Positions 3,315 through 63,463 of a stretch of 64,000 bases of DNA are shown in pieces (positions within the stretch are counted from its first letter, which is position 1; every line of letters begins with the position of its first letter). This DNA comes from Pontiellaceae bacterium B12227 (GTDB lineage Bacteria; Verrucomicrobiota; Kiritimatiellia; Kiritimatiellales; Pontiellaceae). The stretch covers positions 1 to 64,000 of the forward strand of contig JAROAZ010000014.1 of assembly GCA_029432775.1 (NCBI GenBank). Direction: 5' to 3'. The notes under the pieces are model-generated. The model was given only the letters and a program-made list of their open reading frames with translations. It searched no databases and was not told the DNA's origin. Position numbers and translations under genes: made by a program.

Positions 3315-3364
3315 ATCCAGCCATTGGAAAAAGGACTCCTCCCAGCCTTTTCCAATGGCTGGAA
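3315..3364. repeat. Inverted pair of TTCCA-N5-TGGAA palindromes forming a hairpin
   Basis: Copy 1 at 3315-3329 (one mismatch) and copy 2 at 3350-3364 (perfect) face each other. With their flanks they form about 18 bp of stem with one bulge, around an 11-14 nt loop. They lie 75 bp after the secretin stop and just before its terminator. Confidence 0.9.
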
Positions 3365-3374
3365 ATTCAGAAGG

Positions 3375-3398
3375 GCCCCGGTGAAAGCCGGGGCTTTT
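3375..3398 (+). terminator. Rho-independent terminator of the secretin operon
   Basis: A perfect 7-bp GC stem (GCCCCGG / CCGGGGC at 3375-3381 and 3388-3394) is followed by TTTT. It ends the pilus/secretin operon. Confidence 0.85.
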
Positions 3399-3456
3399 CC
3401 CTTTTTGAGAACGGTGGTATGGCAGCCGTCAGAAACGAAACGCGAGTCGTATAGAC

Positions 3457-4276: not shown

Positions 4277-6493
4277 TCAGTCGTCAGTGTAGATGATGAT
4301 TACGCCTCGCCGCGCAAGGGATCGAATGGTTTGATCAGTTCGGAAGGCCTCTGAAACCGTCAGCATCTTCAGATCCCGGTTCCAGATTAGTTGCGGGCTG
4401 ATGGTCAGCCCCTCGATGCCGCTGATATCCAGCGAACGGAGTTTGGAAAGCTTGATCATGCTGGTGATGTTGCGTATGCGGGTTTTGCTGATATCGAGCG
4501 ACTGCAGCCCATTCAGCTGATCCTGATCGAAAAGATGGTTGAGCGGGGTGCCGGCTAGGCGCAGCTCGACCATGCCTTCTTCGGTGAGCAGGTTCAGGTC
4601 GGGCTCCCCGATGTTACTGGCATTTAATATCCGAATCTTAAGGCCGCACAAGGGGGAAATGTCATCCAGTTCAGGATTATTTCCCATATCAATGATCCAG
4701 CCGCCGGAGCCGGTGGCCTGCCACTTAAAATAGAGTTCTTCAACTTCCGGGTTGAGAATCTTCAGGGCCTCAGCCAGGGCCGGGAGGCGGGTGTCCGGAT
4801 CAAAGGCCTGCTGGTTCAGGTGGTAGAATAATCGCGGAAGACCTTCCGGAACATTGTAGGCCACAAAATCTTTCACCAATTGCGGGAGGGCGGCATCGGT
4901 CAATTCGCCCAGTTCCATATATTTTTTTGCCAACCGCATGGCCGGTGGGTCTTTTTGCACTGCATGGCCATGGGCGCCTGATAGAATCTTCCAGGCATTG
5001 GAAAAGTCCAGCTGGCTCAGCAGCAGACGGCCTTTCTGCAGCCAGGCCGCTTCCAGTTCCGGATCAAAGGCCAGGCTGGTGTCGAGCGACTGTTCCGCTT
5101 CTGCAAACTGATAGTTCTTTTCCTGCTCTTCCATCAGGCTCAGATAATCGGGGGCCACCTTCTGCGCGGTACTGGCAATATAGGTGTTCTTTTCCTGAAG
5201 CGCTTCAAGTGCATTTAGAGCAACCCGTTCGCTCTGCTTGATCGAGTTGAAGCTCTGGACCAGCACAACGGCAATGACAGCAGCAGTGGCCGCAATCAGG
5301 CTGACAGCCAGTTTGTGGCGTTTCACCAGGAGCAGGGCGTGGGTAATAAAGGTCGGGTTCTCAGCCGTGGTTGCAAAACCATCCTGATATTTATGAATAT
5401 CAGTAATCAGCGAGGCCACATTGGGATAGCGGTCGGTAGGTTCGGTGGACATCGCTTTAAGGGCAATGGCCGAAAGCGGAGCGGGGATTTTAAGTTCCGG
5501 AGCCCGCATTCCGGGCGGGGAGAAATCGCCGCGGACGGTTTTCTGCAGAACCTCTTTAATTTTTGTGCCCTCAATGGGGCAGTGATAGGTCAGAATTTCG
5601 TAGAGCAGAGAGCCGAGCATGTAGACGTCGGTCTGAAAGTCGATATCCGAGGGCACGCCCTGCGCCTGTTCCGGCGACATATAGCCCGGGGTGCCGCCCA
5701 CCACATTCTTGTGTTCACGCCGTTTGGCCGACCCTTCCAGGTAGTGTGTAAGCGTTTGGCCGTTCTCCAGTTCCACATCATCCATACTCTGCCAGGATAC
5801 CGGTTCGCCATCGTACTCATTCAGGTGCGTGATCAGAGTCGACAGCCCCCAGTCGAGCACATGCACATCGCCAAAGTCGCCCACGCTGATGTTCGAGGGT
5901 TTCAGGTCCAGATGAATGACGCCTTTGGTATGAGCATAGTCAATGGCATTGCAGACTTTTAGAAAAATGGCCAGCAGGCGGGTTCGGGTATAGCGCCCGA
6001 TATATTCCGCATTTCCATTCCGGAGTTGCTTGATAATATCGCCGAGCGTTTCGCCCTTGAGAGCTTTCATGGTGAAATACGGATTCCCGTTCTCATCCAG
6101 CGCAATATCATAGATCGGGATAATGTTCGGATGCTGCAGGTTGGCAGTCAGCCGCGCTTCGTAAAGGAAGGAGTCGATATCATCTTCCGAAGCAATCTTC
6201 GAATCCTGAATCAGCGCCATGGCCACTTTTCGGGCCGTCCGGTGGTCATCCACCTCCCAGATGGCCTTCATGCCCCCCTGATTCAGTTTTTTGTTGGGCG
6301 AATACCGGTCTTTAGGGTTTCCATCCATCAGCCCATCGCGACTTGTGGTTGAATTTCGCTCCAGATCTTCTTCGAAAAGGATCTTTTCTGTGTTGGAAAA
6401 GATGATGTCATCAGCAAACAGGTTGGCATTGCCGATCTCCCTGGCAGGAGCTGGCTTGTCTGTCTTTTTCGGTTGATTTTCGCTGTCAGCCAT
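4277..6493 (-). CDS. Membrane Ser/Thr protein kinase with TPR and leucine-rich C-terminus; displaced catalytic lysine
   Basis: 738 residues from the ATG at 6493; an in-frame TTG at 6505 lies inside a palindrome and is less likely. Kinase domain at about 65-370: the alpha-C Glu (FLYEARLTANLQHPNIIPIYDI), the catalytic loop HLDLKPSN and metal-binding DWG are present. The beta-3 strand reads VAMAL where VAIK is expected, so the usual lysine is missing; a Lys instead sits in the glycine-rich loop (NQGGMKAIW), as in WNK kinases. A membrane segment follows at about 393-412 (LAVSLIAATAAVIAVVLV), then TPR-like helices and leucine-rich repeats (LRLAGTPLNHLF, LQSLDISKTRI). It is encoded just upstream of, and coupled to, the sigma factor. 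The N-terminal kinase should be cytoplasmic and the C-terminus periplasmic. Confidence 0.88.
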   Translation of the reverse strand: MADSENQPKKTDKPAPAREIGNANLFADDIIFSNTEKILFEEDLERNSTTSRDGLMDGNPKDRYSPNKKLNQGGMKAIWEVDDHRTARKVAMALIQDSKIASEDDIDSFLYEARLTANLQHPNIIPIYDIALDENGNPYFTMKALKGETLGDIIKQLRNGNAEYIGRYTRTRLLAIFLKVCNAIDYAHTKGVIHLDLKPSNISVGDFGDVHVLDWGLSTLITHLNEYDGEPVSWQSMDDVELENGQTLTHYLEGSAKRREHKNVVGGTPGYMSPEQAQGVPSDIDFQTDVYMLGSLLYEILTYHCPIEGTKIKEVLQKTVRGDFSPPGMRAPELKIPAPLSAIALKAMSTEPTDRYPNVASLITDIHKYQDGFATTAENPTFITHALLLVKRHKLAVSLIAATAAVIAVVLVQSFNSIKQSERVALNALEALQEKNTYIASTAQKVAPDYLSLMEEQEKNYQFAEAEQSLDTSLAFDPELEAAWLQKGRLLLSQLDFSNAWKILSGAHGHAVQKDPPAMRLAKKYMELGELTDAALPQLVKDFVAYNVPEGLPRLFYHLNQQAFDPDTRLPALAEALKILNPEVEELYFKWQATGSGGWIIDMGNNPELDDISPLCGLKIRILNASNIGEPDLNLLTEEGMVELRLAGTPLNHLFDQDQLNGLQSLDISKTRIRNITSMIKLSKLRSLDISGIEGLTISPQLIWNRDLKMLTVSEAFRTDQTIRSLARRGVIIIYTDD
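4989..5003. repeat. TTCCARNNNYTGGAA palindrome, in gene
   Basis: Perfect arms, centre GGCAT. Within the kinase gene, read as SNAWK on the minus strand. Confidence 0.95.
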
Positions 6494-6499: not shown

Positions 6500-6514
6500 T
6501 TCCAATGGTTGGAA
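6500..6514. repeat. TTCCARNNNYTGGAA palindrome, at a translation start
   Basis: Perfect arms, centre ATGGT. It ends 7 bases before the kinase ATG, so its TTGGAA arm lies where a ribosome-binding site would be. Confidence 0.95.
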
Positions 6515-8508: not shown

Positions 8509-9455
8509 ACCACGCTCTTTTTCGGACAGATGGTAATAATATAATTTTCCAGTAAACGGCGTCCAGCACGCGGGGGCGCATCATAGGTCGGCAGCAGCAG
8601 AGTGGGGACTTTGCGGAAAACCACATCTCCCAGGCTGATTTGCTTTGTTACATTAACTTTCACGTCGCCGCGCGAAAAATGATAGTCGCCGGCAAAATCC
8701 AGCACAATAGGTGCCGGCTCACCCAGCAGAGCTCCTTCAACCGCGAGGCCGTGGTCCTTCAGCGTCACGATTTTGGCTTCACTCATCAGTAGTTCCGCAT
8801 TCGGGGTGTAGGCATCGGTTGAAGAAAGTTCCAGCGTGCGGTCGTGTGAGTTGAATTGAATGTATTCAAATTCCTTCAGTACATCGTATCCAATCACCGC
8901 GCCGATGTCCGGCGAGGTAATGCCGCGCGCCAGCGGGCCCAGTGAGTGAAGCGCCATTCGGACATACACCGGCGTGTTTTCAATCCGAAGCGAGTCGATT
9001 CGCAGTGTGGAAATCACGGCGGCATAGGCCGACGCCTTGCCGATATTATATTTTCCATTGTATGGAAGCTTATAGGAGTCGGTTCCGAGAAAGGTGGCTG
9101 CAAATTTCTGCGATGTGCTGAACTCCATCCACGAAGTCGGCGAACTCGTATCCAGCAGCGCCATCGTCTTCATGCGTTGCGAGCGGCCGCGGAGAGTGAA
9201 CACAGGAATCTGTTTTTCACTGAGCTGCAGCTGAACGGTCTGGCCGCGATGCAATCGGGCGTTGGCATCCTGCAGAAGGGTGCCGTTTGCGGTTTGTGTT
9301 GTTCTAAAGCCGAACTGCGCCGGATCCTTTGCATGCGAAAGATAGGTGTTCTGCTGCATGCGCGGCATAATGAATTCCTCCTGCTTTTCAGCAGCAGAAG
9401 GAACTGCAATAGAGCAGGCGGCAGTTAACGTGAATAGATAGCGGATCTGAATCAT
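8484..9455 (-). CDS. Secreted retropepsin/pepsin-like protein, degenerate aspartyl protease, copy 2
   Basis: 323 residues with an N-terminal signal peptide (LFTLTAACSIAVPSAAE). Two half-sites resemble aspartyl-protease psi loops: MALLDTSSPTSWMEF (about residue 100) and APIVLDFAGDYHF (about 247). In both the usual D-T/S-G is altered (DTS, DFAG). It also has the IGYDVLKEFEYIQF element typical of this fold. It is a clear paralogue of the upstream gene at 9487, sharing LGDVVxRKVPTxLLP and the terminus VYFERFPE. Last gene of the pyrK-pyrD operon. Protease activity is doubtful without the glycine; a binding role is possible. Confidence 0.75.
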   Translation of the reverse strand: MIQIRYLFTLTAACSIAVPSAAEKQEEFIMPRMQQNTYLSHAKDPAQFGFRTTQTANGTLLQDANARLHRGQTVQLQLSEKQIPVFTLRGRSQRMKTMALLDTSSPTSWMEFSTSQKFAATFLGTDSYKLPYNGKYNIGKASAYAAVISTLRIDSLRIENTPVYVRMALHSLGPLARGITSPDIGAVIGYDVLKEFEYIQFNSHDRTLELSSTDAYTPNAELLMSEAKIVTLKDHGLAVEGALLGEPAPIVLDFAGDYHFSRGDVKVNVTKQISLGDVVFRKVPTLLLPTYDAPPRAGRRLLENYIITICPKKSVVYFERFPE

Positions 9456-10454: not shown

Positions 10455-11042
10455 TTATTTTCCTGTGCTGTAAGATGGAATCCGGTTGTCGTAAGCATCG
10501 AGTAACGGAATCATATCGGAAGGGCTTTCTGAAAGACAGGCAATGAGCAGATTATCGGTCAGGGCAAAGGTCAGGCTCATGCCGTTTGCGAGATCCGGTG
10601 AAGTGTATTCCCAGATCGGCCAGACCGAATGTTTTCCCAGAAATTCAAGATTTCCCCCCGTGGCTGCTTCCAGCTTCCAGCGGAGCCATGGACTGCGCCA
10701 GCCCACCCAGCTCGCCGCCACCCAGGTTTTCTGTGCCCCCGCGTTGCGGAAGGGAATGTCGGCAACAGCAATTTCAGAAGCCGCCGCCCATTTTTTCCAA
10801 TCATTGGAAGCGGCCAGCTCTGCAAGCGAGTTGCCCGCGCCCAATGCCTTGTCCAGTTGGCTGCAAACCGGGCTCTGCAGAAGTTCAGCCAGACTGTCAG
10901 CTTTAAAAACAAACGAAGCCTGTGCGGGGAACGCAGAGCAAACCGCACCTTCCTGAAAAGGCTGAACAAACGAATAGACGACGATGGCGCCTGTAAACAA
11001 GGCACCAAGCAGCAGTTTTAAACTGAGCTTGATTTTCCTCAT
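10455..11042 (-). CDS. Membrane-anchored protein of unknown function in the pyr operon
   Basis: 195 residues. One N-terminal membrane segment (LLLGALFTGAIVVYSFV), then a periplasmic domain with SFVFKADSLAELLQSP and a C-terminal SLTFALTDNLLIACLSESPSDMIPLLDAY. The latter resembles proteins that score a substrate through alternating strand-helix units (DUF3352-like), but I do not claim that family. Its ATG overlaps the pyrD stop by 4 bp (ATGA), so translation is coupled. A copy of the dispersed palindrome in the gene encodes SNDWK. No catalytic motif was seen. Confidence 0.7.
   Translation of the reverse strand: MRKIKLSLKLLLGALFTGAIVVYSFVQPFQEGAVCSAFPAQASFVFKADSLAELLQSPVCSQLDKALGAGNSLAELAASNDWKKWAAASEIAVADIPFRNAGAQKTWVAASWVGWRSPWLRWKLEAATGGNLEFLGKHSVWPIWEYTSPDLANGMSLTFALTDNLLIACLSESPSDMIPLLDAYDNRIPSYSTGK
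10795..10809. repeat. TTCCARNNNYTGGAA palindrome, in gene
   Basis: Perfect arms, centre ATCAT. In the membrane-protein gene, read as SNDWK. Confidence 0.95.
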
Positions 11043-11953
11043 ATCTTCACGGTGCCGACGATGTCGGCCACGGAGCTGTGCCCCTTATTAATCAGATACT
11101 GCTCAATGCCGTCAATTACACGGTCGATCGTCGTCGGATCAATAAAGTTGGCAGTGCCCACTGCAACCGCTGTTGCGCCGGCAATCAGGAACTCAATCGC
11201 ATCTTCCGGCTCAAAGATTCCGCCCATTCCAATGATTGGAATGTTGCAGGCCTGCGCGGCATCGAACACCAGTTTGATGGCAATCGGCTTAATCGGCGGG
11301 CCGCTGAGGCCACCGAACTTATTCGCCAGCTCCGGTTCGAGCGTCTCGATGTTGATCGCCATCGCCGGCATCGTGTTCATGATGGCAATCGCATCCGCAC
11401 CGCAATCCTCGGCCGCTTTGGCAAAACTTCCAATGTTTGGAACATTCGGTGCCAGCTTCGGGATGATCGGCTTTTGGGTTTTGGCGCGGACCAGATCGAT
11501 CACGCTGGAAAACGTATCCACATCCGTACCGAAAGCGGAACCGCCTTCTTTCACGTTCGGACAGGAGAGATTGATTTCGTAGGCCGTAACGGTTTCTTCG
11601 TTGTCGAGCATGTCCACCACGCGGCCGTAGTCGTCTTTGCCTTTGCCCCAGATGTTCACAATCACGGGGGTGTCGTATTGGCTGAGGAAGGGGACATATT
11701 TATCAATAAATCCCTGCGCGCCCGGTCCGGGCAGGCCGATGGCGTTCATCATGCCGCCGCGCGTTTCAAAGGTGCGCGGCGTGGAGTTGCCCACATGGGC
11801 CTCCGGGCAGATGCCCTTCACCGTAATCGCGCCGAGGCGGTTCAGATCCACCAGATCCGCGTATTCCGGGCCGTAGCCGAAGGTTCCCGAAGCCACCGTT
11901 ACCGGGTTCTTCATCTCCATCGAGCCAATTTTAATTTTCAGATCAACACTCAT
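11039..11953 (-). CDS. pyrD: Dihydroorotate dehydrogenase class 1B, catalytic subunit
   Basis: 304 residues, standard length. TIM-barrel flavoenzyme that oxidises dihydroorotate to orotate in pyrimidine synthesis. Visible signatures: VASGTFGYGPEY near the N-terminus, YEINLSCPNVKEGG with the class 1 catalytic Cys, and the FMN-phosphate region IIGMGGIFEPEDAIEFLIAGATAVAVGT. Class 1B enzymes pair with the PyrK electron-transfer subunit, whose gene lies 89 bp upstream on the same strand. A repeat of the TTAGTG type fills that gap. A dispersed palindrome at 11428 encodes PNIG in the strand PNVPNIGSF. Confidence 0.95.
   Translation of the reverse strand: MSVDLKIKIGSMEMKNPVTVASGTFGYGPEYADLVDLNRLGAITVKGICPEAHVGNSTPRTFETRGGMMNAIGLPGPGAQGFIDKYVPFLSQYDTPVIVNIWGKGKDDYGRVVDMLDNEETVTAYEINLSCPNVKEGGSAFGTDVDTFSSVIDLVRAKTQKPIIPKLAPNVPNIGSFAKAAEDCGADAIAIMNTMPAMAINIETLEPELANKFGGLSGPPIKPIAIKLVFDAAQACNIPIIGMGGIFEPEDAIEFLIAGATAVAVGTANFIDPTTIDRVIDGIEQYLINKGHSSVADIVGTVKI
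11428..11442. repeat. TTCCARNNNYTGGAA palindrome, in gene
   Basis: Perfect arms, centre ATGTT. In pyrD, read as PNIG. Confidence 0.95.
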
Positions 11954-12042: not shown

Positions 12043-12822
12043 CTAAACTTCCCAGAGAATTTCGCGGGATTCGAAGATGGGGCCATCTTTGCAACAGCGC
12101 GCCCATTCCCAGCCGTCGGCCGTTTTGCGTTTAATCACGCAGGTCAGGCAGGCGCCGACGCCGCAGGCCATGTTTTTATCGAGCGAGAGCCACGCGGTGA
12201 AATCTTTTTCAATCGCCCGGTCGCCGATGGCTTTGAGCATCGGGTTCGGTCCGCAGACAAAAACTTCCAATGATTGGAAGTCCTGCTCCGCCGCCCACGG
12301 GTCGAAGGCCGCCGTCACAAGACCTTTCGTGCCGAGCGAGCCGTCGTCGGTGGTGGGGCGTACGTCCCAGCCGAGGGCTTCAAACTCTTTCACCAGCAGA
12401 ATGTCAATGGCCGAGCGTCCGCCGAAAAAGGCAATACCCTTCTTTTCCATGCGCTGAGCCAGAATGTAGAGCGCGGCGTTACCGTAGCCGCCGGCCACCA
12501 GTACGGGCGTTTTGCTCGGGTCAGGCTCCGGATAGCCGTTCCCGAGCGATCCGATGATATTGACTTCATCGCCCACCTGCATGTTGGCCATGGCCTCGGT
12601 TCCGCGTCCGACCGTTTTATAAAGAACGGCCACGCCGGATTCATCGGCCTGGTAGATGCTGAAAGGGCGGCGCAGAATACGTTCGCCGATTCGTGGAACC
12701 TGAAGTTCCAGAAACTGGCCGGCTTTCACCAGCGGGCCCACAACGGGAGCCGCCAGGCGCAGAATGCGATATTCGCCCTGAAAATTGTCGTGTTCGAGTA
12801 CGGTTGCTTTTTCCTGTTTCAT
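12043..12822 (-). CDS. pyrK: Dihydroorotate dehydrogenase electron-transfer subunit
   Basis: 259 residues. FAD-binding ferredoxin-reductase fold with RPFSIYQ (FAD), GNGYPEP and VLVAGGYGNAALYILAQRM (nucleotide site). Near the C-terminus a [2Fe-2S] cluster motif reads MACGVGACLTCVIK ... WARCCKDGPIF, the PyrK pattern C-x4-C-x2-C plus a later Cys. It passes electrons from PyrD to NAD+. First gene of the minus-strand run pyrK-pyrD-unknown-two paralogues. A dispersed palindrome at 12265 encodes FQSLE just before the VFVCGPNPML motif. Confidence 0.93.
   Translation of the reverse strand: MKQEKATVLEHDNFQGEYRILRLAAPVVGPLVKAGQFLELQVPRIGERILRRPFSIYQADESGVAVLYKTVGRGTEAMANMQVGDEVNIIGSLGNGYPEPDPSKTPVLVAGGYGNAALYILAQRMEKKGIAFFGGRSAIDILLVKEFEALGWDVRPTTDDGSLGTKGLVTAAFDPWAAEQDFQSLEVFVCGPNPMLKAIGDRAIEKDFTAWLSLDKNMACGVGACLTCVIKRKTADGWEWARCCKDGPIFESREILWEV
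12265..12279. repeat. TTCCARNNNYTGGAA palindrome, in gene
   Basis: Perfect arms, centre ATGAT. In pyrK, read as FQSLE. Confidence 0.95.
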
Positions 12823-12866: not shown

Positions 12867-12881
12867 TTCCAAGGATTGGAA
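12867..12881. repeat. TTCCARNNNYTGGAA palindrome, intergenic
   Basis: Perfect arms, centre AGGAT. It lies 19 bp after the autotransporter stop and 45 bp upstream of the pyrK start. Confidence 0.95.
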
Positions 12882-12900: not shown

Positions 12901-15900
12901 CTAGAAATTATATTTCAGGCTGCCGCTGACGGTGGTGGATTTCCAACCATCGGAAAGCTGCTGGTTGAGGCGCAGGTCGAGTTCGAGCCGCTCTTTGAAT
13001 TCGGTTACAAGGCCGGCTCCAAGGATCAGTGTATCCTCTTCGGGCGACTGAATGGCGGAGCTGGAGCCGGTGCCGGTTCCTTCGGTGATGTAGCTGATGC
13101 GGTCTTCATCGGCATTAAAGTTGTGCTGCCAGTGGGCGCGCAATTCCGGTCGGAGCAAAAAGGAGTCGCCCGCCGGGAAGAGCAGGGCGGCGTTGAGGCC
13201 GAGTATCGACTTGATATACCAGGCATCGTAGGTTTTGTAGGTGTTGTTGATGATGCCGCTCTCGGTGAAGGATTCCTGATGGTAGTAGTTGATCTGACCG
13301 CCGAGCTCGGGCGTCAGCAGGAGGCGTTTTGTGGTTTTGTATTGCCGCCCGCCACCGATATAGAGCATGCCGTTGTGGGCGTTGTAGTCGGCGGAGGATG
13401 CAAACATGGAGCCGCGTTTGGCCTCCACGTTGTTGTGGCTGTAGGAGAGGGTGGCATCGAGAAACCAGGTTTCGGACCCGAATGAGCTGTAGAGCGAACC
13501 GAACCAGGTATCGACATCGCTGGAGCCCGGTTCGTCGGTATCCACATCGGTGCGGGAGGTGCCGCCGGCGATCCCGACGAGGGCTTGTGCAGTGGTTTTT
13601 TCCACGCCGAGCACGACGCCGGCGATGTTGGCATCATAGCCGACAAAGCTGGAGTCGGCATCTTTCTCGGCTTTGGTGCCATAGCCTTTCATCCAGCCGC
13701 TCCAGCCTTTGGGGCCTTCAACCGGGCCGGCCGCACCGGCCGGGGTGGATTTGGAGGAGGCCATTCCGCCCGACTGACGGAAGCCGTCCATATGGTTCAG
13801 CACCTGGTCCACCTGCGCCTGCTGCCCGGCCTGCAGGGCCTGCGCGGCCATCGCCGTGGTGGATCGGTTGAAGTAGCGTTCCATCTCCGGAGCGGCCCGT
13901 TTGCGGACCCATTCACTCGAGAGATAAGACATGATGTGTTCCAACGAGGAGTTGTAGGGACCCCCGGAATTACTTTGTTGTGCACGGTAGTTGTCCAGGT
14001 AGGCCGTCAGATGGGCCGGCAGGGGGTTGTCGGCTTTGTCGGCGAGGGCAATGCCGGTGCCGAATACGTTGATTTCTGAACCGGATGCCCCGGTGGTGAG
14101 GGTGAAATTATATTCAGATAGATAGGAATCCGTCAGGGTGAAAATGGATGCAAGGTCCGCTTCGGTCATTATATGCGTGTCGGATGAGCTGACAAAGTTG
14201 AGCTGGCCGGCGCGGATCGTAGCCGTTTCGTTGGTTACGCCGGGGAGTAATCTGCTGCCCCAGAAATTGTATTGAATACGCGAGCCTTCGTGGAAATCGG
14301 CCCGGCTGATATCAATCTCTGTGGGATCCTGATTATAATCATAGTAATAATACGAAGCTAAGGAGAGGGCGGCCTCGTTCTCCACGGTCAGCTGACCGAT
14401 TCCTGCTTTTCCTTCAAGACTGAGGTTGGCCCGGGAGCGAACGGTGATGTTTGTGGCCTGGAAGAGCCCGGCGCTGATGTAAAAGGATCCTTCCGGCTCC
14501 AGGATGAGCTCATCGTTCAGCTGAAGATTGTTGCCGCTGAAGCCTGCATTCTGGAAGGTGCCGGGATCGATGGTGTTGATCCGGATGTTTCCTCCCATAT
14601 TCAGACCGCCGTAGTTGACGGCATCTCTGGAAAGGTAGAGGTCGGCGAATTGATCGTCTTCATAGGTGCCCTGAATGTTGATGGAACTGAAACGCCCGCC
14701 CAGAATGTTGATTTCTTTTTCCACATTGGCGGAGAGGCCGCTTCCATAGGCGTAGAGGTCGCCTCCGCTGAACTCACCACTGTAAATATTGAGTCGGTCA
14801 CCGGTGAACAGCAGGCCGGTTCCGGTTCGCCGGTCGGATCCGCCCCCTTTGAAGATGCCCCCATGGATTTCGGCCTGTCCCGCAGCGATGTTCATCCCGT
14901 TGCCGGCATTGCCCAGGGAGTCGTAATACCAGTACGAGGAGGACTGCTCAGTGCTGTAACGAAGATTGATTTCTTCGCCTTCATCACCGCCGAGATAAGT
15001 GCCGCCCTGAATGACGACGTTGGAATAGTTCTGAATCACCGCACCATGACCGCCGTCAGCATACAGACTCCAGTTACCCGTCGCCATTCCGCCTTTTCCG
15101 CCCTGGGCGGTGACATTTCTCAGTTCGAGCGAGTTGGGAGCCGCTGTCGTATTTTCGCCATCAATCCAGAGCCCCGTGCCGCCGTTGGCCCGGGCTGATT
15201 CATTATAGGGCCATCCGGTCTCCGCAGGATTCATGACGGTGGCGCTTCCGCCGTTCCCTCCGAGATAGCTCCCCCCTTCCAGCATGGCATTGGTTGCGCC
15301 ATAGAGCTGGAAACCATTTCCGCCGTTGGCGGTGACATATGATTGCCCCATCGCATTGCCACCGTTTCCGCCCGTTGCAGAGCTGTTTATCAGCAGCACG
15401 CGCTGGTCGGTTTCGAGATGCAGGCCGGCGCCGCCGTGTGCCATGGCATATGTTGAGTCGCTGATCGCCTCGCCTGCATGGCCGCCCTCGAAGTCGGAAT
15501 CCATGAAGATGAAATCGTAGTCGATGGATTCCAACGGGGTGGTGCGCGGGTTGATTGTGAAGGAGGGGGAGGTTAATGAGGCGCCTCCGGAAATAATTAA
15601 ACTGCCATGGCTTATGGATGGACTTGACGGGTTGGTCCATACCGATCCGCCATTGCCGCCTGTAAACGTCCCGCCCCCGATGAAGGAAATATCATTTGTG
15701 AGCAGGAGGCCCTGTCCTCCCGATGCAAAGGAACTGCCGCTCCCGACGTTTACTGCGTTGCCTGCTGACCCTCCGGTGAAGGTGCCGCCCGAGGTTATAT
15801 TGGAAATGATGGAAGGGTAGGGCATGTAAAGTCCGCTTCCGCCTGTTCCAGGATCGACGAGGATCGGATACATAATCATAACGGAGCCCGAACCGCCGCT

Positions 15901-16455: not shown

Positions 16456-16470
16456 TTCCAAACATTGGAA
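16456..16470. repeat. TTCCARNNNYTGGAA palindrome, intergenic
   Basis: Perfect arms, centre AACAT, in the divergent autotransporter promoter region. Confidence 0.95.
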
Positions 16471-16519: not shown

Positions 16520-16534
16520 TTCCAGTGATTGGAA
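16520..16534. repeat. TTCCARNNNYTGGAA palindrome, intergenic
   Basis: Perfect arms, centre GTGAT, 59 bp before the start of the plus-strand autotransporter. Confidence 0.95.
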
Positions 16535-19835: not shown

Positions 19836-19850
19836 TTCCAATGCCTGGAA
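19836..19850. repeat. TTCCARNNNYTGGAA palindrome, after a stop codon
   Basis: Perfect arms, centre ATGCC, beginning 3 bp after the autotransporter stop. Confidence 0.95.
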
Positions 19851-51992: not shown

Positions 51993-53451
51993 ATTTCTGG
52001 ATCAGGTTGGTGGTGATGCGGGCTGACATCAGCACGGTTGGCGTTCCGCCGCCGGGGTGAGTGCTGCCTCCCACATAATAAAGCCCCTTGATTTTCATAT
52101 CCTTGTTGAGCGGGCGCATGAAGGCATTCTTTTTTCCGTGGGAATTCCTGCCATAGATGGCTCCTCCCGGCATGGCATAGGTTTGGGCCATTCTTTCAGG
52201 TGTCCAGACATCCGAAGCAACGATTTCGTCGGCAAAGTCCGGAAAGCCGGAGACCTTCAGGCGGTTCAGCACACGCTGGCGTGCGGCCTCCGTGTGCGCC
52301 GCATCCCAGCTGATTCTGTCGTTCGCCGGAGCATTGGCCATAACAAACATCACTTCACCGTCGCCCGGTGTCATGCTTCGGTCGGTGATGCTCGGCATAT
52401 TAACATAGACTGTGGGATCATCGGGGAAGCAGCGTTCATCAAACAATTGCCGGAACTCGTGGTCGTAGTCTCTGGAAAAGCAGACCTGGTGGTGGCTCCA
52501 GTCCGGATGCCTGTTTTTGAGGGCAAAAAGAAAAACCAGACCGGAAAGGGAACGTTCATCCGGCGGGCATTCCCGGTGTTTGTCAATGCCGAGCATCGGA
52601 CCGGTCATCGAGACATCCCCGTTCATGATCACCACATCCGCATCCAGGCGTTCGCCGGCCGCCAACCGGACGCCTTCGACTTTCTTTGCGGTATGGGCAA
52701 TTCGGTCAACTTCCGCGTTCAGCCGCAACTCGACGCCATGTTTATCCATAAGGGTTTCCAGAGATTGGATGATGTTGTACAGCCCTCCGCGGATATGCCA
52801 GCCACCCTGAGCATATTCCACATAAGGAACCACGCACAGCGTTCCGGGGGACTGATGAGGAGACGAGCCGACATAGGTCATATAGCGGTCGTATATTCTG
52901 CGCAGGTATGGGCTTTTAATGTAGTGACTCATTTCCTTGTGGTAATGGCCCCACCCACGCCGCAGCGGCATATTGGCAAGCACATGCACGGTCTCTTTAC
53001 CCGGCGGCTCCATGGGGCTGCGGGCGAAGAAGGTGGATTTCGAAACCTCGTGCAGACGAGCGCCCAGTTCCATGTAGGCCATGAAGCCCTCGGTCGTGCC
53101 TTCAAACCTCCTTACAGTATTCAACCACTCGGGCAGCGATGCTGACTGGCTGCATGTGGTGCCATCGTCAAATGTGTAGTTCACCTGGTGTGTCAGCTGC
53201 ATTAATTCCACATATTCGCGCATGTCGGTGCCGAGGGCCTGGTAGAGTTCCTCGAATACATCCGGCATGGTAATGAGTGAAGGCCCGGTATCGAAGGTGT
53301 AGCCCTGGGTGCTCCAGCGGTTCATCTTGCCGCCTGGCGTTGCGCCTCGTTCACATATCGTCACGGCCCAGCCTTGGGCCGACAGCCGCAGTGCAGTTGC
53401 CATGCCTCCAAGACCCGCACCGATTACAATGGCTTTTTTCCGATTCTTCAT
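51982..53451 (-). CDS. Phytoene-desaturase-family FAD enzyme (CrtI/CrtN-like), copy 2
   Basis: 489 residues from the ATG at 53451, where the FAD motif AIVIGAGLGGMATALRLSAQGWAVTICERGATPGGKMNRW begins; the longer frame to 53673 overlaps the upstream gene and is rejected. It also has FDTGPSLITMPDVFEELY and the C-terminal LYYVGGSTHPGGGTPTVLMSARITTNLI. Typical desaturase layout. It is coupled to the upstream glycosyltransferase by a 4-bp ATGA overlap and to cruF downstream by 11 bp. One near-copy of the dispersed palindrome (52756) encodes IQSLE. Confidence 0.92.
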   Translation of the reverse strand: MKNRKKAIVIGAGLGGMATALRLSAQGWAVTICERGATPGGKMNRWSTQGYTFDTGPSLITMPDVFEELYQALGTDMREYVELMQLTHQVNYTFDDGTTCSQSASLPEWLNTVRRFEGTTEGFMAYMELGARLHEVSKSTFFARSPMEPPGKETVHVLANMPLRRGWGHYHKEMSHYIKSPYLRRIYDRYMTYVGSSPHQSPGTLCVVPYVEYAQGGWHIRGGLYNIIQSLETLMDKHGVELRLNAEVDRIAHTAKKVEGVRLAAGERLDADVVIMNGDVSMTGPMLGIDKHRECPPDERSLSGLVFLFALKNRHPDWSHHQVCFSRDYDHEFRQLFDERCFPDDPTVYVNMPSITDRSMTPGDGEVMFVMANAPANDRISWDAAHTEAARQRVLNRLKVSGFPDFADEIVASDVWTPERMAQTYAMPGGAIYGRNSHGKKNAFMRPLNKDMKIKGLYYVGGSTHPGGGTPTVLMSARITTNLIQKYEK

Positions 53452-54566
53452 GATACGCCCGATCGATTGTAGGTTCTGCCTTTCCAGCGAACCCCTTGTT
53501 TGTTCCGGAAGATGTGCCGCGCATAAAATCCCAGACCAATGAGGCCGGCCTCCGCGACAGGATGAAACAGCACAGACCAGAACGGATAGCCGAACTGCGC
53601 GCACTGCACCGCCCTGGCCAGCAGGATTGCACCGGCGGCCCATGAGATGCCAACCGGCTCGAATGGCAACCACCAGGCCAGCGGCAGCAGCAGGACCGGC
53701 AGTAGCAGGAAAAACAGATGCAAAACCATGAAAAGCCAGAACGAAGCCTCGTGTTTGAATGCGGGATAGGCGATTTTTGAAAATCCCTCAACAATCTCGC
53801 GCAACGTGCTGTACATGCGAACCGAAACAAAGCCGCGTCCGTTCAGGCATGTACCCTTCAGTCCGCCCGTCCTCCATTCACGAGCCAGCACCGTGTCCTC
53901 GAACAATTCATGTTTCACCTTTTCGTGTCCGCCCATGCTCTTATATTCCTCGTGCCGTATGAAAAGGCTGGCGCCATGGGCGAGTCCGAAAGAAGGGGTG
54001 GAATAGCGCTCCTGAAGCGGTGCTGGAAAAAGGCTGAACACAACAAAGTTCAGCATGGGCATGAAGACCTTTTCCCAGAAGGAGATGGCGAGTATTTCCG
54101 GCCAGCACGATAGAAAGGTGACCTTTCGGGCCATGGATTCTCCCAGCATTCTGGAAACAGCCCCCGGATGCAGACGGGTGTCAGCATCAAGAAAAAACAA
54201 CCACTCGCCCGATGCATTGGCCGCCAGCTGCCAGCAGGCAAACGGTTTCCCGAGCCATCCTGCGGGAAGAGGTTGCGGCTGAATCAAACCAATGATCGGC
54301 GACCGGGTCTGCATGGCCCGCACCAGATCCGCCGTATCATCGTCGGAGTGATCATCATACACGAGGATTTCTTTTACGAGGGCACCTTGTTGCTGGGCCG
54401 ATTCGATGGCGGCTTCAATATGGTGCGCCTCGTTCCGCGCGGGAATCAAAATGGAAACAACCGGGGCATCTGATTCAGCCTCCCGGGTGAGTCGAGGCCA
54501 TTTCAATGCGTTGGAAAGCACCATCCATAGTAGCATGAAATTTACAATGACAATGGCTGTTAGCAC
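53448..54566 (-). CDS. Carotenoid-type family 2 glycosyltransferase (CrtQ/CruC-like)
   Basis: 372 residues from a GTG start with GGAGG 10 bp upstream. An N-terminal membrane helix, the GT-A core VVSILIPARNEAHHIEAAIESAQQQGALVKEILVYDDHSDDDTADLV, WLFFLDADTRLHPGAV (DxD) and SFGLAHGASLFIRHEEYKSMGGHEKVKHELFEDTVLAREW, then two or three C-terminal membrane helices (FWLFMVLHLFFLLLPVLLLPLAWW). This is the layout of glycosyltransferases that put a sugar on a hydroxylated carotenoid. First gene of glycosyltransferase-desaturase-cruF. Confidence 0.87.
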   Translation of the reverse strand: MLTAIVIVNFMLLWMVLSNALKWPRLTREAESDAPVVSILIPARNEAHHIEAAIESAQQQGALVKEILVYDDHSDDDTADLVRAMQTRSPIIGLIQPQPLPAGWLGKPFACWQLAANASGEWLFFLDADTRLHPGAVSRMLGESMARKVTFLSCWPEILAISFWEKVFMPMLNFVVFSLFPAPLQERYSTPSFGLAHGASLFIRHEEYKSMGGHEKVKHELFEDTVLAREWRTGGLKGTCLNGRGFVSVRMYSTLREIVEGFSKIAYPAFKHEASFWLFMVLHLFFLLLPVLLLPLAWWLPFEPVGISWAAGAILLARAVQCAQFGYPFWSVLFHPVAEAGLIGLGFYARHIFRNKQGVRWKGRTYNRSGVS

Positions 54567-54730: not shown

Positions 54731-54745
54731 TTCCAATGATTGGAA
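54731..54745. repeat. TTCCARNNNYTGGAA palindrome, after a stop codon
   Basis: Perfect arms, centre ATGAT, 5 bp after the hcp stop and just before its terminator. Confidence 0.95.
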
Positions 54746-57129: not shown

Positions 57130-57144
57130 TTCCAATGTCTGGAG
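57130..57144. repeat. TTCCA-N5-TGGAG, near-perfect palindrome after a stop codon
   Basis: One arm mismatch, centre ATGTC, 1 bp after the thioredoxin-lipoprotein stop. Confidence 0.85.
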
Positions 57145-59893: not shown

Positions 59894-61256
59894 TCTGAAT
59901 GCGGATCTTGGCGAGCTGGACGATGGCTTGCTCGATGCCGCGATCATGCCCTTTATTTCTTCCTGCAACATTGCCTGCGGCGCGCATGCCGGCAGTTTTG
60001 AAACCATGCGCCGGACGGTCTGTCTGGCGAAAGTGCATCGGGTGGCCATTGGCGCGCATCCCGGATATCCAGACCCTGAAAACTTCGGGCGCATCTCCAT
60101 GGAGTTCCAAACCGTGGAACTGTGCAGGCTGATCCGGAATCAGATCCTGCTGCTCAAGCAGATTGCAGAAGCCGAGGGCGTATCTCTTGCTCACGTCAAA
60201 CTCCATGGTGCGCTCTACAACGATCTGGCCTTCGACTACAACCGCTCGCTCGCCGTTGCCGAAACCATCGCCGCGATTAATCCCGAGCTTCGGTTTATCG
60301 TCTTCTCCGGTTCTGAAACCGCCCGTGCGGCCGAAGATGCCGGACTGGTTGCGGTTCATGAGGTCTTTGCCGACCGGGCATACACGGAAGACGGCAAGCT
60401 GAGGCCGCGCTCCGAGCCCGGCGCGGTGCTGCACCACGACGCCGACTGTCTGCAGCAGGCCGCACGTTTTCTGAGCGGAGCTTCGGGGTTCATCGCCGAT
60501 TCCATCTGTGTGCACGGCGATAATCCCTCGGCCATTGAATTTGTTTCCAAGCTTCGGAACTTTTTTGCCGATCGGAAAATCGAGGTGGAGCCCGCGGGCG
60601 ATTTAGTCCCTTCCTTCGAGCAGCTTGGCGAGAGTTCGTTGCTGGCTCAGCTCCCGCAGCGGATCTCAAAATCCACCCACCGGAAAATCCGGGCGCTGCA
60701 GCTTGCGCTCGAGGGCGCGGAAGGCATTACGGAAATGGTACCGTGTTACGCGGAGCTGAAGATTGATTTTGATCCGTCGGTGATTTCATTCAGCGATCTT
60801 AAGAATCGTATCCAAAGCGTGGAAATCAGTCTGGCTGATTTCCCGGAGCCAAGGGTGGTGGAAGTGCCGGTTCTATACGACGGAGAAGATCTGTCGCAGG
60901 TAGCAGAACACAATGGGCTCACGAAGGATGAGGTTATCGGACAGCACTGCGAACCGACCTATCTCATCTACATGCTCGGCTTTTCACCGGGCTTTGCCTA
61001 CATGGGCGGCTTGAATTCCAACCTGTCGACGCCCCGGCTGGAGACGCCGCGCACATCCGTTCCGGCCGGCGCCGTCGGTATTGCCGGCAATCAGACGGGG
61101 ATCTATCCGGTTGAATCGCCCGGCGGCTGGAACATCATCGGCCGCACGCCGCTGAAACTTTTTTACCCAACCTCCGAAGCCCCGTTCCTGTTTGAGCCCG
61201 GCGACGAGGTTCGGTTTTTTCCCATATCGGAGGAGGAATTCCATGCGCACGGTTGA
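59877..61256 (+). CDS. pxpAB: 5-oxoprolinase subunit A-B fusion (PxpA-PxpB)
   Basis: 459 residues from the ATG at 59877, the first Met before the PxpA signature TRIDLNADLGE. N-terminal PxpA (LamB/YcsF) domain, about 1-245: ISSCNIACGAHAGS, IGAHPGYPDPENFGR, LAHVKLHGALYNDLA, EVFADRAYTEDGKLRPRSEPGAVLHH. C-terminal PxpB (KipI-like) domain, about 262-459: MVPCYAELKIDFDP, TYLIYMLGFSPGFAYMGGL, TPRTSVPAGAVGIAGNQTGIYPVESPGGWNIIGRTPL. These are separate proteins in E. coli. With PxpC they cleave 5-oxoproline to glutamate with ATP. Overlaps obgE by 17 bp and pxpC by 14 bp. Confidence 0.93.
   Translation: MQTRIDLNADLGELDDGLLDAAIMPFISSCNIACGAHAGSFETMRRTVCLAKVHRVAIGAHPGYPDPENFGRISMEFQTVELCRLIRNQILLLKQIAEAEGVSLAHVKLHGALYNDLAFDYNRSLAVAETIAAINPELRFIVFSGSETARAAEDAGLVAVHEVFADRAYTEDGKLRPRSEPGAVLHHDADCLQQAARFLSGASGFIADSICVHGDNPSAIEFVSKLRNFFADRKIEVEPAGDLVPSFEQLGESSLLAQLPQRISKSTHRKIRALQLALEGAEGITEMVPCYAELKIDFDPSVISFSDLKNRIQSVEISLADFPEPRVVEVPVLYDGEDLSQVAEHNGLTKDEVIGQHCEPTYLIYMLGFSPGFAYMGGLNSNLSTPRLETPRTSVPAGAVGIAGNQTGIYPVESPGGWNIIGRTPLKLFYPTSEAPFLFEPGDEVRFFPISEEEFHAHG
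60105..60119. repeat. TTCCARNNNYTGGAA palindrome, in gene
   Basis: Perfect arms, centre AACCG (last centre base not a pyrimidine). In the pxpA part, read as FQTVE. A one-mismatch copy lies at 60810-60824 (IQSVE). Confidence 0.95.
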
Positions 61257-62094
61257 GGTCATTGAACCGGGCATGTACACCACGGTGCAGGATGCCGGCC
61301 GGGCCGGCTATCTGCGCTATGGCCTGCCGCCATCCGGGGCGATGGACCGGCGGGCGTTTGAAATCGCAAATGCATTGGTCGGCAACAGCCCGGAAGCGGC
61401 TGTGCTGGAATGCACCGGCACGATGCCGGTGCTGGAGTTCAGTCGCGCGGTCAGTGGAGCGGTGGTTTATGCCGACCATTTCCAGTTCCTGGAAGTTTCA
61501 GCAGGTGAGCGCAAAAAGTTCCAAACTCTGGAAACCGGCTATCGGGCCTACATTGCGGTTGCTGGTGGCTTTGATACTCCGCCGGTGATGGGCAGTCGCT
61601 CGACCTATGTGCCCGGCAAACTCGGCGGTTTTGAAGGGCGGCCCCTGAGGGCAGGGGATGTGCTTTCGCTCGCGAATGTAGACGGAGCTTCCAGCTCCGT
61701 TGAGAATGAGGGGGCAGCGTTTATCTCTTTGGCAAACGGAGCTGGAAGCTCCGTCTACGCTAGGGTCATCCCCGGGCCGGAGGCGGATTGGTTTGACTGC
61801 GGCGGGTTGAATACTTTTTTAACGGAAGCGTTTTATGTTTCTTCAAAGTCCGACCGCACCGGCATTCGGTTGGAAGGGGCACCGCTGTCGTTCCGCCATG
61901 AAGCGCAGCTGGTTTCGTCGGGCATCGCCATGGGCACCATTCAGGTTCCGCCGTCTGGCCAGCCGATAGTCATGATGGCTGACCATCCCACCACCGGCGG
62001 ATATCCAAGGATTGGAAACGTGGTGCGGGATGATCTGCCCATACTCGCCCAGCTCAGGCCGGGCGATGATGTGCGGTTTGTTGAGGCGGGGTAG
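61243..62094 (+). CDS. pxpC: 5-oxoprolinase subunit C (biotin-dependent carboxyltransferase family)
   Basis: 283 residues from the ATG at 61243 after GGAGGA. VEVIEPGMYTTVQDAGRAGYLRYGLPPSGAMDRRAFEIANALVGN, ARVIPGPEADWF, SSKSDRTGIRLEG and GIAMGTIQVPPSGQPIVMMADHPTTGGYPRIGNVVRDDLP are PxpC/AHS2 motifs. It works with the upstream fused subunit. An 81-bp palindromic element inside the gene adds 27 residues (about 146-172) just before the PGPE motif. Two perfect dispersed palindromes (61480, 61519) and one near-copy (62003) also lie in it. Confidence 0.93.
   Translation: MRTVEVIEPGMYTTVQDAGRAGYLRYGLPPSGAMDRRAFEIANALVGNSPEAAVLECTGTMPVLEFSRAVSGAVVYADHFQFLEVSAGERKKFQTLETGYRAYIAVAGGFDTPPVMGSRSTYVPGKLGGFEGRPLRAGDVLSLANVDGASSSVENEGAAFISLANGAGSSVYARVIPGPEADWFDCGGLNTFLTEAFYVSSKSDRTGIRLEGAPLSFRHEAQLVSSGIAMGTIQVPPSGQPIVMMADHPTTGGYPRIGNVVRDDLPILAQLRPGDDVRFVEAG
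61480..61494. repeat. TTCCARNNNYTGGAA palindrome, in gene
   Basis: Perfect arms, centre GTTCC. In pxpC, read as FQFLE. Confidence 0.95.
61519..61533. repeat. TTCCARNNNYTGGAA palindrome, in gene
   Basis: Perfect arms, centre AACTC. In pxpC, read as FQTLE, 39 bp after the previous copy. Confidence 0.95.
61678..61758. repeat. Perfect 24-nt inverted repeat inserted in pxpC
   Basis: Arms 61678-61701 and 61735-61758 are exact complements around a 33-bp loop. Each arm is itself palindromic (ACGGAGCT-TCC-AGCTCCGT). Total 81 bp = 27 codons, frame kept, giving a Gly/Ala/Ser-rich insert. REP-like mobile element. Confidence 0.92.
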
Positions 62095-62104
62095 GGGTTT
62101 TAAC

Positions 62105-63463
62105 CTACCGGTTCCGCCTTTGGCGCTGCGGCGCTGCGGCTGGATCGTACTCCTTATTTTCTTCCGGCAGCTGGGCGCCGGTTTCTTCGAGCCGTTGCTC
62201 CAGCTGTGCGACCATCTTTTTGAAGCGGCCGGCTTCTTCTGTTGAAAGATCCTTCGATTCGCCGATGCCGGTTTTCAGGTTGAAGAGCTGATCGGTGCCG
62301 GTGTCCCAGTTGCGAAGCAGTTTCCAGTCGTTGGAAATGAGGGCAGACTGCGGGACCTGCGGGCCCTGTCCGTAGTGGGGATAGTGGAAGAGGAGATCGT
62401 TGCGGCGTTTGAAGTCGCTTTCTTTACCGGTCAGCAGGGGGGCAAGATTTTCACCTTCGCCCGGTTTAATCTCTGTTCCGGCCCATGCAGCAAAGGTCGG
62501 GAGCAGGTCGGTTCCGGAAACCGCTTCGGTGCAGTAGCCGGTTTTGATGCCGGGGCCGGAGACGATGAAGGGAATGCGGATGCCGCCTTCAAAGAGCGTG
62601 CCTTTGCCGGCCTGAAGCGGAAGGTTGTTCGGCTTGCGGCGGTTGCCCTGTGCGCCGTTGTCGGACATGTAGACCACATAGGTGTTCCCGGCAATGTCCA
62701 GTTTTTCCAGGGCCTGGAAAATTTCATTCAGGCTTTCGTCGAGGTCCCAGGTCATTCCGGCATAGTCCGTTTCAACATGGATGCCGCCCGAGGGGAGCTT
62801 CTTGAATTTTTCCAGGCTTTCGGGGCGCGTCTGGATGGGGGTGTGGACAGCATAGTGCGAGAGCTGGAGATAGAACGGTTTTCCGGCCTTTACGCTTTTC
62901 TCCATGAACGCAATGCCGCGCTCGGTCAGGCTGAAGATTTCTTTCGGATCTTCGTCGGTTCCATTGTCGCGGTTTTCTGTTGAGCCGTCATGAAGATCAA
63001 AGCCATGATTGCCGGCGTGGTCGTCGCGGCCGATGTGCCATTTGCCGAGCAGGGCCGTGGCATAACCCTCGGCTTTCAGCAGTGTTCCAATGGTTGGAAG
63101 TTCGTCCGAGAGGCGGGTGGATGAACGGGGGGTGATTACCTGCCGAGAGCTGTCGGGCCGCCCGCCGCCGGGCGTCGTGATGTGTGTTTCCGCAGGGGTT
63201 TTCCCGGACAGTACCGCGGCGCGGCTGGGGGTGCACATCGGTCCCGGCGAATAGGCCTGTGAAAAGACCATGCCGTTGGCGGCCAGTTTTTCGAGGTTGG
63301 GCGTTTGGTGAAAGTCGCTTTTGGTTTCGGGATCGCCCTTGATCATTTCCACCGATGAGCCGGTCCACCCCATGTCGTCGGCGTAGATGAATACGATGTT
63401 GGGTTTGTCGGCGAATACGCATGACGCTGCCAGCAGGAGAGGGAGGGTCAGTTTATTAATCAT
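62105..63463 (-). CDS. Secreted arylsulfatase-type sulfatase
   Basis: 452 residues from the ATG at 63463; signal peptide MINKLTLPLLLAASCVFA. The sulfatase core starts KPNIVFIYADDMGW (metal Asp pair) and has the formylglycine site GPMCTPSRAAVLSGK (C-T-P-S-R, Cys type), then GYATALLGKWHIG and VVYMSDNGAQGN (metal DN). Removes sulfate esters, likely from polysaccharides, and needs a formylglycine-generating enzyme elsewhere. It contains three perfect dispersed palindromes, one in each reading frame (SNDWK, FQALE, PTIG). Convergent with pxpC. Confidence 0.93.
   Translation of the reverse strand: MINKLTLPLLLAASCVFADKPNIVFIYADDMGWTGSSVEMIKGDPETKSDFHQTPNLEKLAANGMVFSQAYSPGPMCTPSRAAVLSGKTPAETHITTPGGGRPDSSRQVITPRSSTRLSDELPTIGTLLKAEGYATALLGKWHIGRDDHAGNHGFDLHDGSTENRDNGTDEDPKEIFSLTERGIAFMEKSVKAGKPFYLQLSHYAVHTPIQTRPESLEKFKKLPSGGIHVETDYAGMTWDLDESLNEIFQALEKLDIAGNTYVVYMSDNGAQGNRRKPNNLPLQAGKGTLFEGGIRIPFIVSGPGIKTGYCTEAVSGTDLLPTFAAWAGTEIKPGEGENLAPLLTGKESDFKRRNDLLFHYPHYGQGPQVPQSALISNDWKLLRNWDTGTDQLFNLKTGIGESKDLSTEEAGRFKKMVAQLEQRLEETGAQLPEENKEYDPAAAPQRQRRNR
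62323..62337. repeat. TTCCARNNNYTGGAA palindrome, in gene
   Basis: Perfect arms, centre GTCGT. In the sulfatase gene, read as SNDWK. Confidence 0.95.
62705..62719. repeat. TTCCARNNNYTGGAA palindrome, in gene
   Basis: Perfect arms, centre GGGCC. In the sulfatase gene, read as FQALE. Confidence 0.95.
63085..63099. repeat. TTCCARNNNYTGGAA palindrome, in gene
   Basis: Perfect arms, centre ATGGT. In the sulfatase gene, read as PTIG. Confidence 0.95.

Follow-up and report, generated by a model that had tools for sequence, protein, structure and literature searches.

Introduction

The DUS of Neisseria and the USS of Haemophilus occur at a density comparable to that of the word described here, prefer gene ends and exist as lineage-specific dialects, and REP and BIME elements are extragenic palindromes found in arrays. 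HIP1 of cyanobacteria, in the part of its description available to us, is a highly iterated palindrome that is patchy between relatives (PMC4390886). Sites of the Lrp type are spaced two or three helical turns apart, on a single face of the DNA, and DNA is wrapped around their proteins (PMC2995911). One of these, Ss-LrpB, binds as a dimer to a 15-bp palindrome, TTGCAAAATTTGCAA, and in Lrp/AsnC arrays binding is cooperative, and three dimers wrap about 100 bp of DNA (PMC2995911; PMC4046817; both as excerpted).

Abundance and form of the word

The window is the whole 64-kb stretch of DNA analyzed here, from an organism close to Pontiella (Kiritimatiellia). It holds 36 exact copies of TTCCAN5TGGAA (Table 1), against a mean of 0.08 and a maximum of 2 in 100 dinucleotide shuffles. 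The observation made in a preliminary description of this DNA is confirmed as real: the excess is strong, although the 32 perfect copies reported there are in fact 36, the first at 2837 and not after a start at 3315, and the 12 one-mismatch copies that it listed all exist, among a total of 19. The genome-wide count that it proposed also lies far above the null. The 6.29-Mb window genome carries 2297 copies, about 0.37 per kb, versus 6 for a reversed-pattern control, and in 704 kb of that genome 243 copies were seen where a fourth-order Markov model, trained on the same 704 kb, predicted 5.6. Copies are unevenly spaced (CV 1.27), and the evenness that might suit uptake signals was not seen.

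The spacer length is strict: 245 matches in 704 kb have N5, whereas N4 gives 1 and N6 gives 4. Mismatches are tolerated symmetrically and according to position, with A5 changed to G in 34 cases and T11 to C in 29, and C4 and G12 are almost invariant. In the window, 33 of 36 copies begin the centre with a purine (all, according to the preliminary description), 32 end it with a pyrimidine, and 31 do both. The three middle bases had been said to vary freely, but 225 of the 243 copies in the 704-kb sample have C or G as the central one. Wing sequences differ by lineage, amounting to dialects.

Table 1. Perfect and one-mismatch copies of the word in the 64-kb window, with gene context and state in aligned relatives
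Positions	Site	Context
2837..2851	perfect	
3350..3364	perfect	intergenic
4989..5003	perfect	
6500..6514	perfect	intergenic by gene caller
9053..9067	perfect	
10795..10809	perfect	intergenic by gene caller
11227..11241	perfect	
11428..11442	perfect	
12265..12279	perfect	
12867..12881	perfect	intergenic
16456..16470	perfect	intergenic; next site 64 bp away
16520..16534	perfect	intergenic
19836..19850	perfect	intergenic, directly 3' of stop codon
23354..23368	perfect	intergenic
23687..23701	perfect	intergenic by gene caller
24996..25010	perfect	
27097..27111	perfect	in aminotransferase gene; G001, G009, G027 keep arms
28412..28426	perfect	in photolyase gene; G001 keeps site
30102..30116	perfect	
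30642..30656	perfect	G001 and G027 keep arms, centre differs
31534..31548	perfect	intergenic by gene caller
34553..34567	perfect	in fumarase gene; absent from six aligned relatives, without indel there
36275..36289	perfect	intergenic, directly 3' of stop codon
36695..36709	perfect	G009 keeps site
36931..36945	perfect	G001 and G021 keep site
37294..37308	perfect	G001 and G009 keep site
39773..39787	perfect	directly 3' of metG stop codon; G001 and G027 keep site
43672..43686	perfect	G001 keeps site
44558..44572	perfect	G001, G009, G027 keep site
54731..54745	perfect	directly 3' of prismane gene stop codon; G001 keeps site
60105..60119	perfect	
61480..61494	perfect	
61519..61533	perfect	39 bp after site at 61480 (out of phase)
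62322..62336	perfect	
62705..62719	perfect	
63085..63099	perfect	
3315..3329	one mismatch	
12941..12955	one mismatch	
23759..23773	one mismatch	
31575..31589	one mismatch	
34279..34293	one mismatch	
34521..34535	one mismatch	32 bp from perfect site 34553
39014..39028	one mismatch	
42905..42919	one mismatch	
43629..43643	one mismatch	43 bp from perfect site 43672
43944..43958	one mismatch	
44529..44543	one mismatch	29 bp from perfect site 44558
45113..45127	one mismatch	
45759..45773	one mismatch	
52756..52770	one mismatch	
54502..54516	one mismatch	
57130..57144	one mismatch	
60545..60559	one mismatch	
60810..60824	one mismatch	
62003..62017	one mismatch	

Placement relative to genes

Gene positions come from a simple, home-made gene caller, so counts per gene class are approximate. 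By this caller, 14 of the 36 perfect window copies are intergenic, within about 9.9 kb of non-coding DNA. In the 704-kb sample, 170 of 243 copies fall within genes, where the three frames are used with little bias (66/60/44), and the palindrome is over-represented both within genes and between them. Intergenic copies peak directly downstream of stop codons, with 34 of 71 distances below 30 bp, and density is highest between convergent genes, at 1.44 per kb versus 0.28 in genes. Clusters in the array genomes, treated below, are mainly intergenic: 31/31 in G048, 22/22 in G077, 19/20 in G057 and 11/14 in G071.

Distribution and turnover

The word is patchy but class-wide in Kiritimatiellia. At least 50 copies were found in 44 of the 131 genomes of the class that were searched, spanning 13 of 40 families, and in none of 256 genomes elsewhere in the phylum. 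Among cultured strains, Pontiella sulfatireligans F21 carries 829 copies. Of the 12 window sites that can be aligned, 10 are perfect in G001, a motif-rich relative (79% identity); a control for identity at the same ten positions gave 0.124. Perfect counterparts number 5 of 12 in G009 and 4 of 11 in G027, and 0 or 1 in each of three motif-poorer relatives. None of the 12 sites aligned with G001 has an indel, and 1 to 3 sites are gapped versus each more distant relative. Copies at alignable sites thus arise by substitution and not by insertion, with no sign of the shared transposon origin that the preliminary description had proposed looking for.

A small functional set of sites was sought in the motif-poor relatives G004, G018 and G014, which have only 11, 10 and 14 scattered copies of a stricter word. 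A genus tree drawn without supports from two partial proteins, only one of which is contributed by several of the genomes, suggests no more than wide differences in density among closely related species.

Helical phasing, arrays and phages

In G028, a member of the same family, all 50 of the close pairs listed (of 434 in the range of 20–50 bp) are spaced at 21, 22, 30, 31 or 32 bp, where 21–22 bp corresponds to two helical turns and 30–32 bp to three. In the window genome itself the phasing is weak: among the 25 pairs listed of 122, 14 are in phase versus 8.1 expected (binomial P ~0.01), and the same 25 include spacings of 28, 29, 34, 38, 39 and 48–50 bp. For 97 relaxed-site pairs from a genus sample, a 10.5-bp phase has p ~0.0025 with a mean phase near 0, the best-fitting period being 11.35 and not 10.5.

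Arrays with a 31/32-bp spacing occur in G048, G071, G057, G049, G052 and G077 (reversed control, 0), and at least five families other than that of G028 carry such arrays; G050 has 89 copies, yet a single array pair. In G057, many arrays lie at contig ends and related spacers recur between arrays, so arrays there appear to have spread partly by duplication, a process that could by itself propagate a period. Inspected by eye, the spacers of G071, G077 and G048 seem unrelated, and the period is kept.

Viral contigs carry the word in the same arrangement: a 31/32-bp spacing was seen in 12 stretches and a 21-bp spacing in 2, versus none for the reversed pattern and none at 26/27 bp; the 36/37-bp class has three stretches, each with a pair at 36 bp, out of phase. 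Thirteen contigs have such pairs, and phage genes were present on all 8 of those checked. The array-bearing contigs include those of tailed phages.

A putative dimeric DNA-binding protein

What reads the word? In our view, TTCCARNSNYTGGAA is probably the site at which a self-associating protein of the Kiritimatiellia binds DNA as a homodimer. Each arm would sit in the major groove, with the two arms about one helical turn apart, and dimers on adjacent sites would touch at two (21 bp) or three (31.5 bp) turns, on the same face of the DNA. A single protein would presumably do the binding, and it may bend or wrap the DNA. Such a protein is consistent with the strict palindrome and N5 spacing, the symmetric mismatch tolerance, the gain of sites by substitution and their conservation in motif-rich relatives where sites can be aligned, the helical phasing (very strong in G028 and the array genomes, weak in the window genome) and the presence of the word on phage contigs. 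The strict spacing, the mismatch tolerance and above all the phasing favor the two half-sites of a dimeric protein suggested in the preliminary description, whose interpretation as a whole is supported in part.

The role of the protein would be genome-wide, in nucleoid organization or global regulation, and not tied to one pathway, because up to thousands of copies lie in genes and beside unrelated genes, favoring gene ends. A bolder version, conceivable but rather doubtful, is that an undescribed chromatin-like protein coats or wraps the Kiritimatiellia chromosome at up to thousands of phased sites, which turn over rapidly, and that tailed phages have acquired arrays, possibly to exploit or placate this protein.

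The binder was not found among the candidates checked, namely Lrp, Fur and ComEC. Lrp (PF01037 match) is present in 52 of 58 genomes, as a single match in 48, including motif-poor G004 and G018; no match was obtained in six, among them G003, G007 and G010 (168–241 copies), all 59–89% complete. Its helix-turn-helix is similar in motif-rich and motif-poor relatives (13 readable rows of 30), and there is no perfect or one-mismatch site between 39788 and 42904, hence none upstream of the Lrp gene. Lrp was rejected because its presence does not track the word: motif-rich and motif-poor genomes both have it. The window genome does encode Fur, and TTCCAATSATTGGAA resembles a Fur-type 7-1-7 box. Unlike what Fur boxes would imply, however, motif-rich G048 (1808 copies, 96% complete), G040 and G036 gave no Fur match, and its absence from G048, among the richest genomes, spoke against Fur as the binder. 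ComEC was set aside, since it does not tell motif-rich from motif-poor genomes. A regulon was also dismissed, the genes flanking arrays in G057, G071, G077 and G048 sharing few families and no common pathway being seen.

Judged by eye from its sequence, the strongest cross-genome match among the array-flanking genes resembles pheS.

Alternative explanations

The word could also be read by a methyltransferase or restriction-modification enzyme and be enriched by linked mutation, repair or selection, as a HIP1-like iterated palindrome of the kind that the preliminary description had considered. The excess in and outside genes, the origin by substitution and the patchiness between relatives fit this, as does the core CCAN5TGG, which is what Type II enzymes such as PflMI recognize. 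It is nevertheless unlikely: TTCC..GGAA (348 versus 5 in the control) is more strongly enriched than CCAN5TGG alone (546 versus 162), and, as far as we know, neither lineage-specific wings nor two- and three-turn phasing and arrays are predicted; helical phasing and arrays are not known to us from HIP1. Quite unlikely, too, is a DNA uptake signal, preferred by a competence receptor and enriched by uptake and recombination. Here the density, in-gene copies, gene-end preference, substitution origin and dialects all recall DUS and USS, and ComEC is present in 54 of 58 relatives, the window genome included. However, ComEC is also found in motif-poor G004, G018 and G014, phage contigs carry arrays, and phased arrays are, to our knowledge, no feature of DUS or USS; as far as we know, this earlier suggestion does not predict the two- and three-turn spacing. 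Both explanations are less likely than a dimer-binding site.

A selfish or REP-like extragenic palindrome that spreads by making copies of itself, whether or not it has been domesticated, would account for the mainly intergenic clusters of G048, G077, G057 and G071 and for the recurring spacers and contig-end arrays of G057, where arrays look partly duplicated. For the window genome, with copies that arise by substitution at alignable places and lie mostly in genes, this reading, and with it the self-spreading element proposed earlier, is largely refuted; the unrelated-looking spacers of G071, G077 and G048 also count against it, and overall we consider it very unlikely. Least credible, and indeed extremely improbable, is an RNA-level element, whose hairpins would end or stabilize transcripts. 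The peak after stop codons and the density between convergent genes might suggest as much, but 78 copies of the window genome lack a T-run after the palindrome, changes that keep a G-U pair on one strand enjoy no general tolerance (C4 to T, 1; C3 to T, 8), and both A5 to G and T11 to C occur often. Nor would RNA pairing predict DNA helical phasing, and most copies in the window genome are in genes.

Significance and comparison with known systems

No description of the word, six of its instances or the system was found in the open-access literature, covered for broader topics by titles and the beginnings of abstracts. A dedicated site with up to thousands of copies per genome, phased in several lineages and found in 13 families and on phage contigs, may point to a DNA-organizing or global regulatory system that has been missed. 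The word itself could be used as bait for its binder, with the motif-poor sister species as natural controls, and it would allow the turnover of thousands of binding sites among closely related species to be studied.

Like HIP1, as portrayed in the available part of its description, the Kiritimatiellia word is a highly iterated palindrome, patchy among relatives; HIP1, however, is 8 bp rather than 15 bp and is linked to methyltransferases. Unlike DUS and USS, which are not known to do so, the Kiritimatiellia word forms palindromic arrays with helical spacing. With REP and BIME elements it shares, in some families, arrays of palindromes chiefly between genes, whereas the copies of the window genome are made by substitution and are mostly in genes. 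It departs from Lrp/AsnC arrays in that the Lrp gene does not follow the motif and, to go by the excerpted sources, in having near-exact sites with a central C or G (known sites are degenerate, with AT-rich centres) and up to thousands of copies per genome (37 ChIP peaks for Ss-LrpB). Like the Lrp/AsnC site, on the other hand, which is a palindrome of 13–17 bp with two half-sites, the word is a 15-bp palindrome, and its copies, too, lie two or three helical turns apart, if weakly so in the window genome.

Abundance and distribution of the palindrome

The window holds 36 perfect copies of TTCCAN5TGGAA, against a mean of 0.08 in shuffles, and 19 near-copies with one mismatch, among which are all 12 that the preliminary description had picked out. 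The bacterium's own genome (6.29 Mb, 206 contigs) contains 2297 copies against 6 of the reversed pattern, AAGGTN5ACCTT, and the fetched pieces of a 704-kb sample contain 243, where a fourth-order Markov model that already includes words of the motif itself gives 5.6. The spacer is strict: counted on the joined pieces of this sample, there are 245 matches with N5, 1 with N4 and 4 with N6. Mismatches are tolerated chiefly at A5/T11 (to G/C) and at the outermost bases, C4 and G12 being nearly fixed. Among the 243 sampled copies, the centre is flanked by a purine in 231 and a pyrimidine in 229, and 225 have C or G as their central base. The wings vary with lineage, with TT 5' of TTCCA in G048 and G071, AAAAC in G057, AAAAG in G077 and, weakly, T in the own genome.

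The window's LepA is 94% identical to those of Pontiella sulfatireligans F21 and a Pontiella desulfatans MAG, from which the window most probably belongs to the Pontiellaceae and, by the same inference, to the class Kiritimatiellia. P. sulfatireligans has 829 copies in a count over 43 named genomes. Counts run from 3 to 2297 across 58 genomes (the own genome and its relatives) and from 5 to 2297 within the 28 genomes of the genus. In a rough tree, three genomes that cluster together carry 260 (G027), 88 (G024) and 5 (G004) copies per Mb, which suggests that word density differs sharply between close species. In an evenly drawn scan of 387 genomes of the phylum Verrucomicrobiota, at least 50 copies were found in 44 of 131 genomes of the class Kiritimatiellia, in 13 of its 40 families, and in none of the 256 genomes outside it, where the maximum was 30. 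(One 2.4-Mb genome outside the class, G151, has the control word AAGGTN5ACCTT 55 times, against at most 15 in any other genome of the scan; this is perhaps another dispersed palindrome.)

Where do the copies lie? In the 704-kb sample, 170 are inside genes, spread over the reading frames as 66, 60 and 44, and 73 are between genes; the density is 0.28 per kb in genes, 0.69 in intergenic DNA and 1.44 between convergent genes, and 34 of the 71 measured distances to a neighbouring stop codon are shorter than 30 bp. In other families the word forms arrays, mostly intergenic: 31 of 31 clusters in G048, whose contigs were chosen blind, and 22 of 22 in G077, 19 of 20 in G057 and 11 of 14 in G071, whose contigs were fetched because they bear arrays. 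The genes adjoining arrays are mostly unrelated to one another. Beside several G057 arrays (L276, L277, L286, L293) there is, by eye, an apparent second hairpin with G+C-rich arms of the CCCGCC...GGCGGG type, which seem to change together from copy to copy.

Coordinates of individual features
Sequence	Positions	Feature
Window	12901-19832	Pair of large autotransporter genes, divergently oriented, on either side of an intergenic region with two sites 64 bp apart
Window	34553	Site in the fumarase gene
Window	41047-41526	Lrp/AsnC-type gene, overlapping an aminotransferase gene
Window	41047-42676	Lrp/AsnC-type and aminotransferase gene pair
G053, C1	1409676-1410500	ComEC frame with three in-frame TAG codons
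L324 (stretch of a viral contig)	about 650-840	Four-copy phage array with an apparently ordinary intrinsic terminator directly after it

Helical spacing of neighbouring copies

The arrangement of the sites is well supported. Adjacent copies are spaced 31/32 bp in G048 and G071, and two-copy units at this spacing number 78 in G057, 61 in G049, 40 in G052, 1 in G050, 66 in G077 and 72 in G071 (which has its places in common with G445, family f19), while the reversed pattern forms none in any of these six genomes. The spacing is 32 in all 50 listed of the 66 units in G077, and 31 in 22 and 32 in 3 among the 25 listed of the 40 in G052. In G028, a member of the window's family, there are 434 pairs at 20 to 50 bp, and all 50 of those listed, some being neighbours within one run, lie at 21, 22, 30, 31 or 32 bp. 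Among the 25 listed of 122 pairs in the own genome, 14 are in phase (near whole helical turns) against 8.1 expected (P about 0.01), and the mean phase falls 0.9 bp below a full turn. In a genus sample of 97 pairs of relaxed sites, the 10.5-bp phase has p about 0.0025; since a period of 11.35 fits best there, the test is soft on its own.

Some phage contigs share the arrangement. Pairs occur at 31/32 bp on 12 stretches of viral contigs and at 21 bp on 2, against 0 for the reversed 31/32 pattern, 0 at 26/27 bp and 3 at the out-of-phase 36/37 bp. At least three phased copies are present on four stretches: L316, L317, and the pair L320 and L324, which belong to a single contig. All nine proteins tested, from 8 of the 14 stretches, gave PHROGs matches (terminase, portal, head, tape measure or DnaB-like helicase). 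Some phage arrays are intergenic, others inside genes.

Origin and possible role

How did the copies arise? Ten of the 12 alignable window sites (out of 36) are perfect in G001, a word-rich relative, at an overall identity of 0.786; identity is 0.958 in the arms, 0.817 in the centre and 0.752 in the flanks, and for random places the fraction with all ten corresponding positions identical is 0.124. Indels are absent at all 12 sites. Among other relatives, 5 of 12 are perfect in G009, 4 of 11 in G027, 0 of 11 in both G024 and G005, and 1 of 7 in G021, with alignment gaps at 1 to 3 sites in each comparison. At the fumarase site, for example, relatives differ by substitutions with length unchanged. 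Judging from these alignments, the aligned window copies originated by point mutation, not insertion, and were then retained.

Palindromes whose arms are spaced by one turn are classically bound by helix-turn-helix dimers. Dimers on neighbouring sites would touch, as is suggested by their placement two or three turns apart on the same face. Lrp-type proteins are described with such spacing, about 100 bp being wrapped around three dimers (PMC2995911; PMC4046817). The putative sites of the word arrays resemble Lrp-type operators in their two- or three-turn same-face spacing. Lrp itself was rejected as the binder: it is matched in 52 of 58 genomes, with or without the word, and the window's Lrp gene has no site upstream. 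(Exactly one PF01037 match was obtained in 48 genomes of the 58.) Fur was not found in the word-bearing G048. ComEC was uninformative among the genomes compared; the in-frame TAG codons in G053 hint that TAG is reassigned there or that the gene has decayed. For the putative binding sites, a role in genome-wide architecture or in global regulation seems the most likely, given how numerous they are, that their neighbours are unrelated, that they also lie inside genes and that phages carry them too.

No description of the word or of six of its instances was found in the open-access papers searched, nor did broader searches of them list any. The nearest kinds are HIP1, uptake sequences and REP elements; to our knowledge, these lack the two- or three-turn helical grammar. 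The word is classed here with the dispersed protein-site systems.
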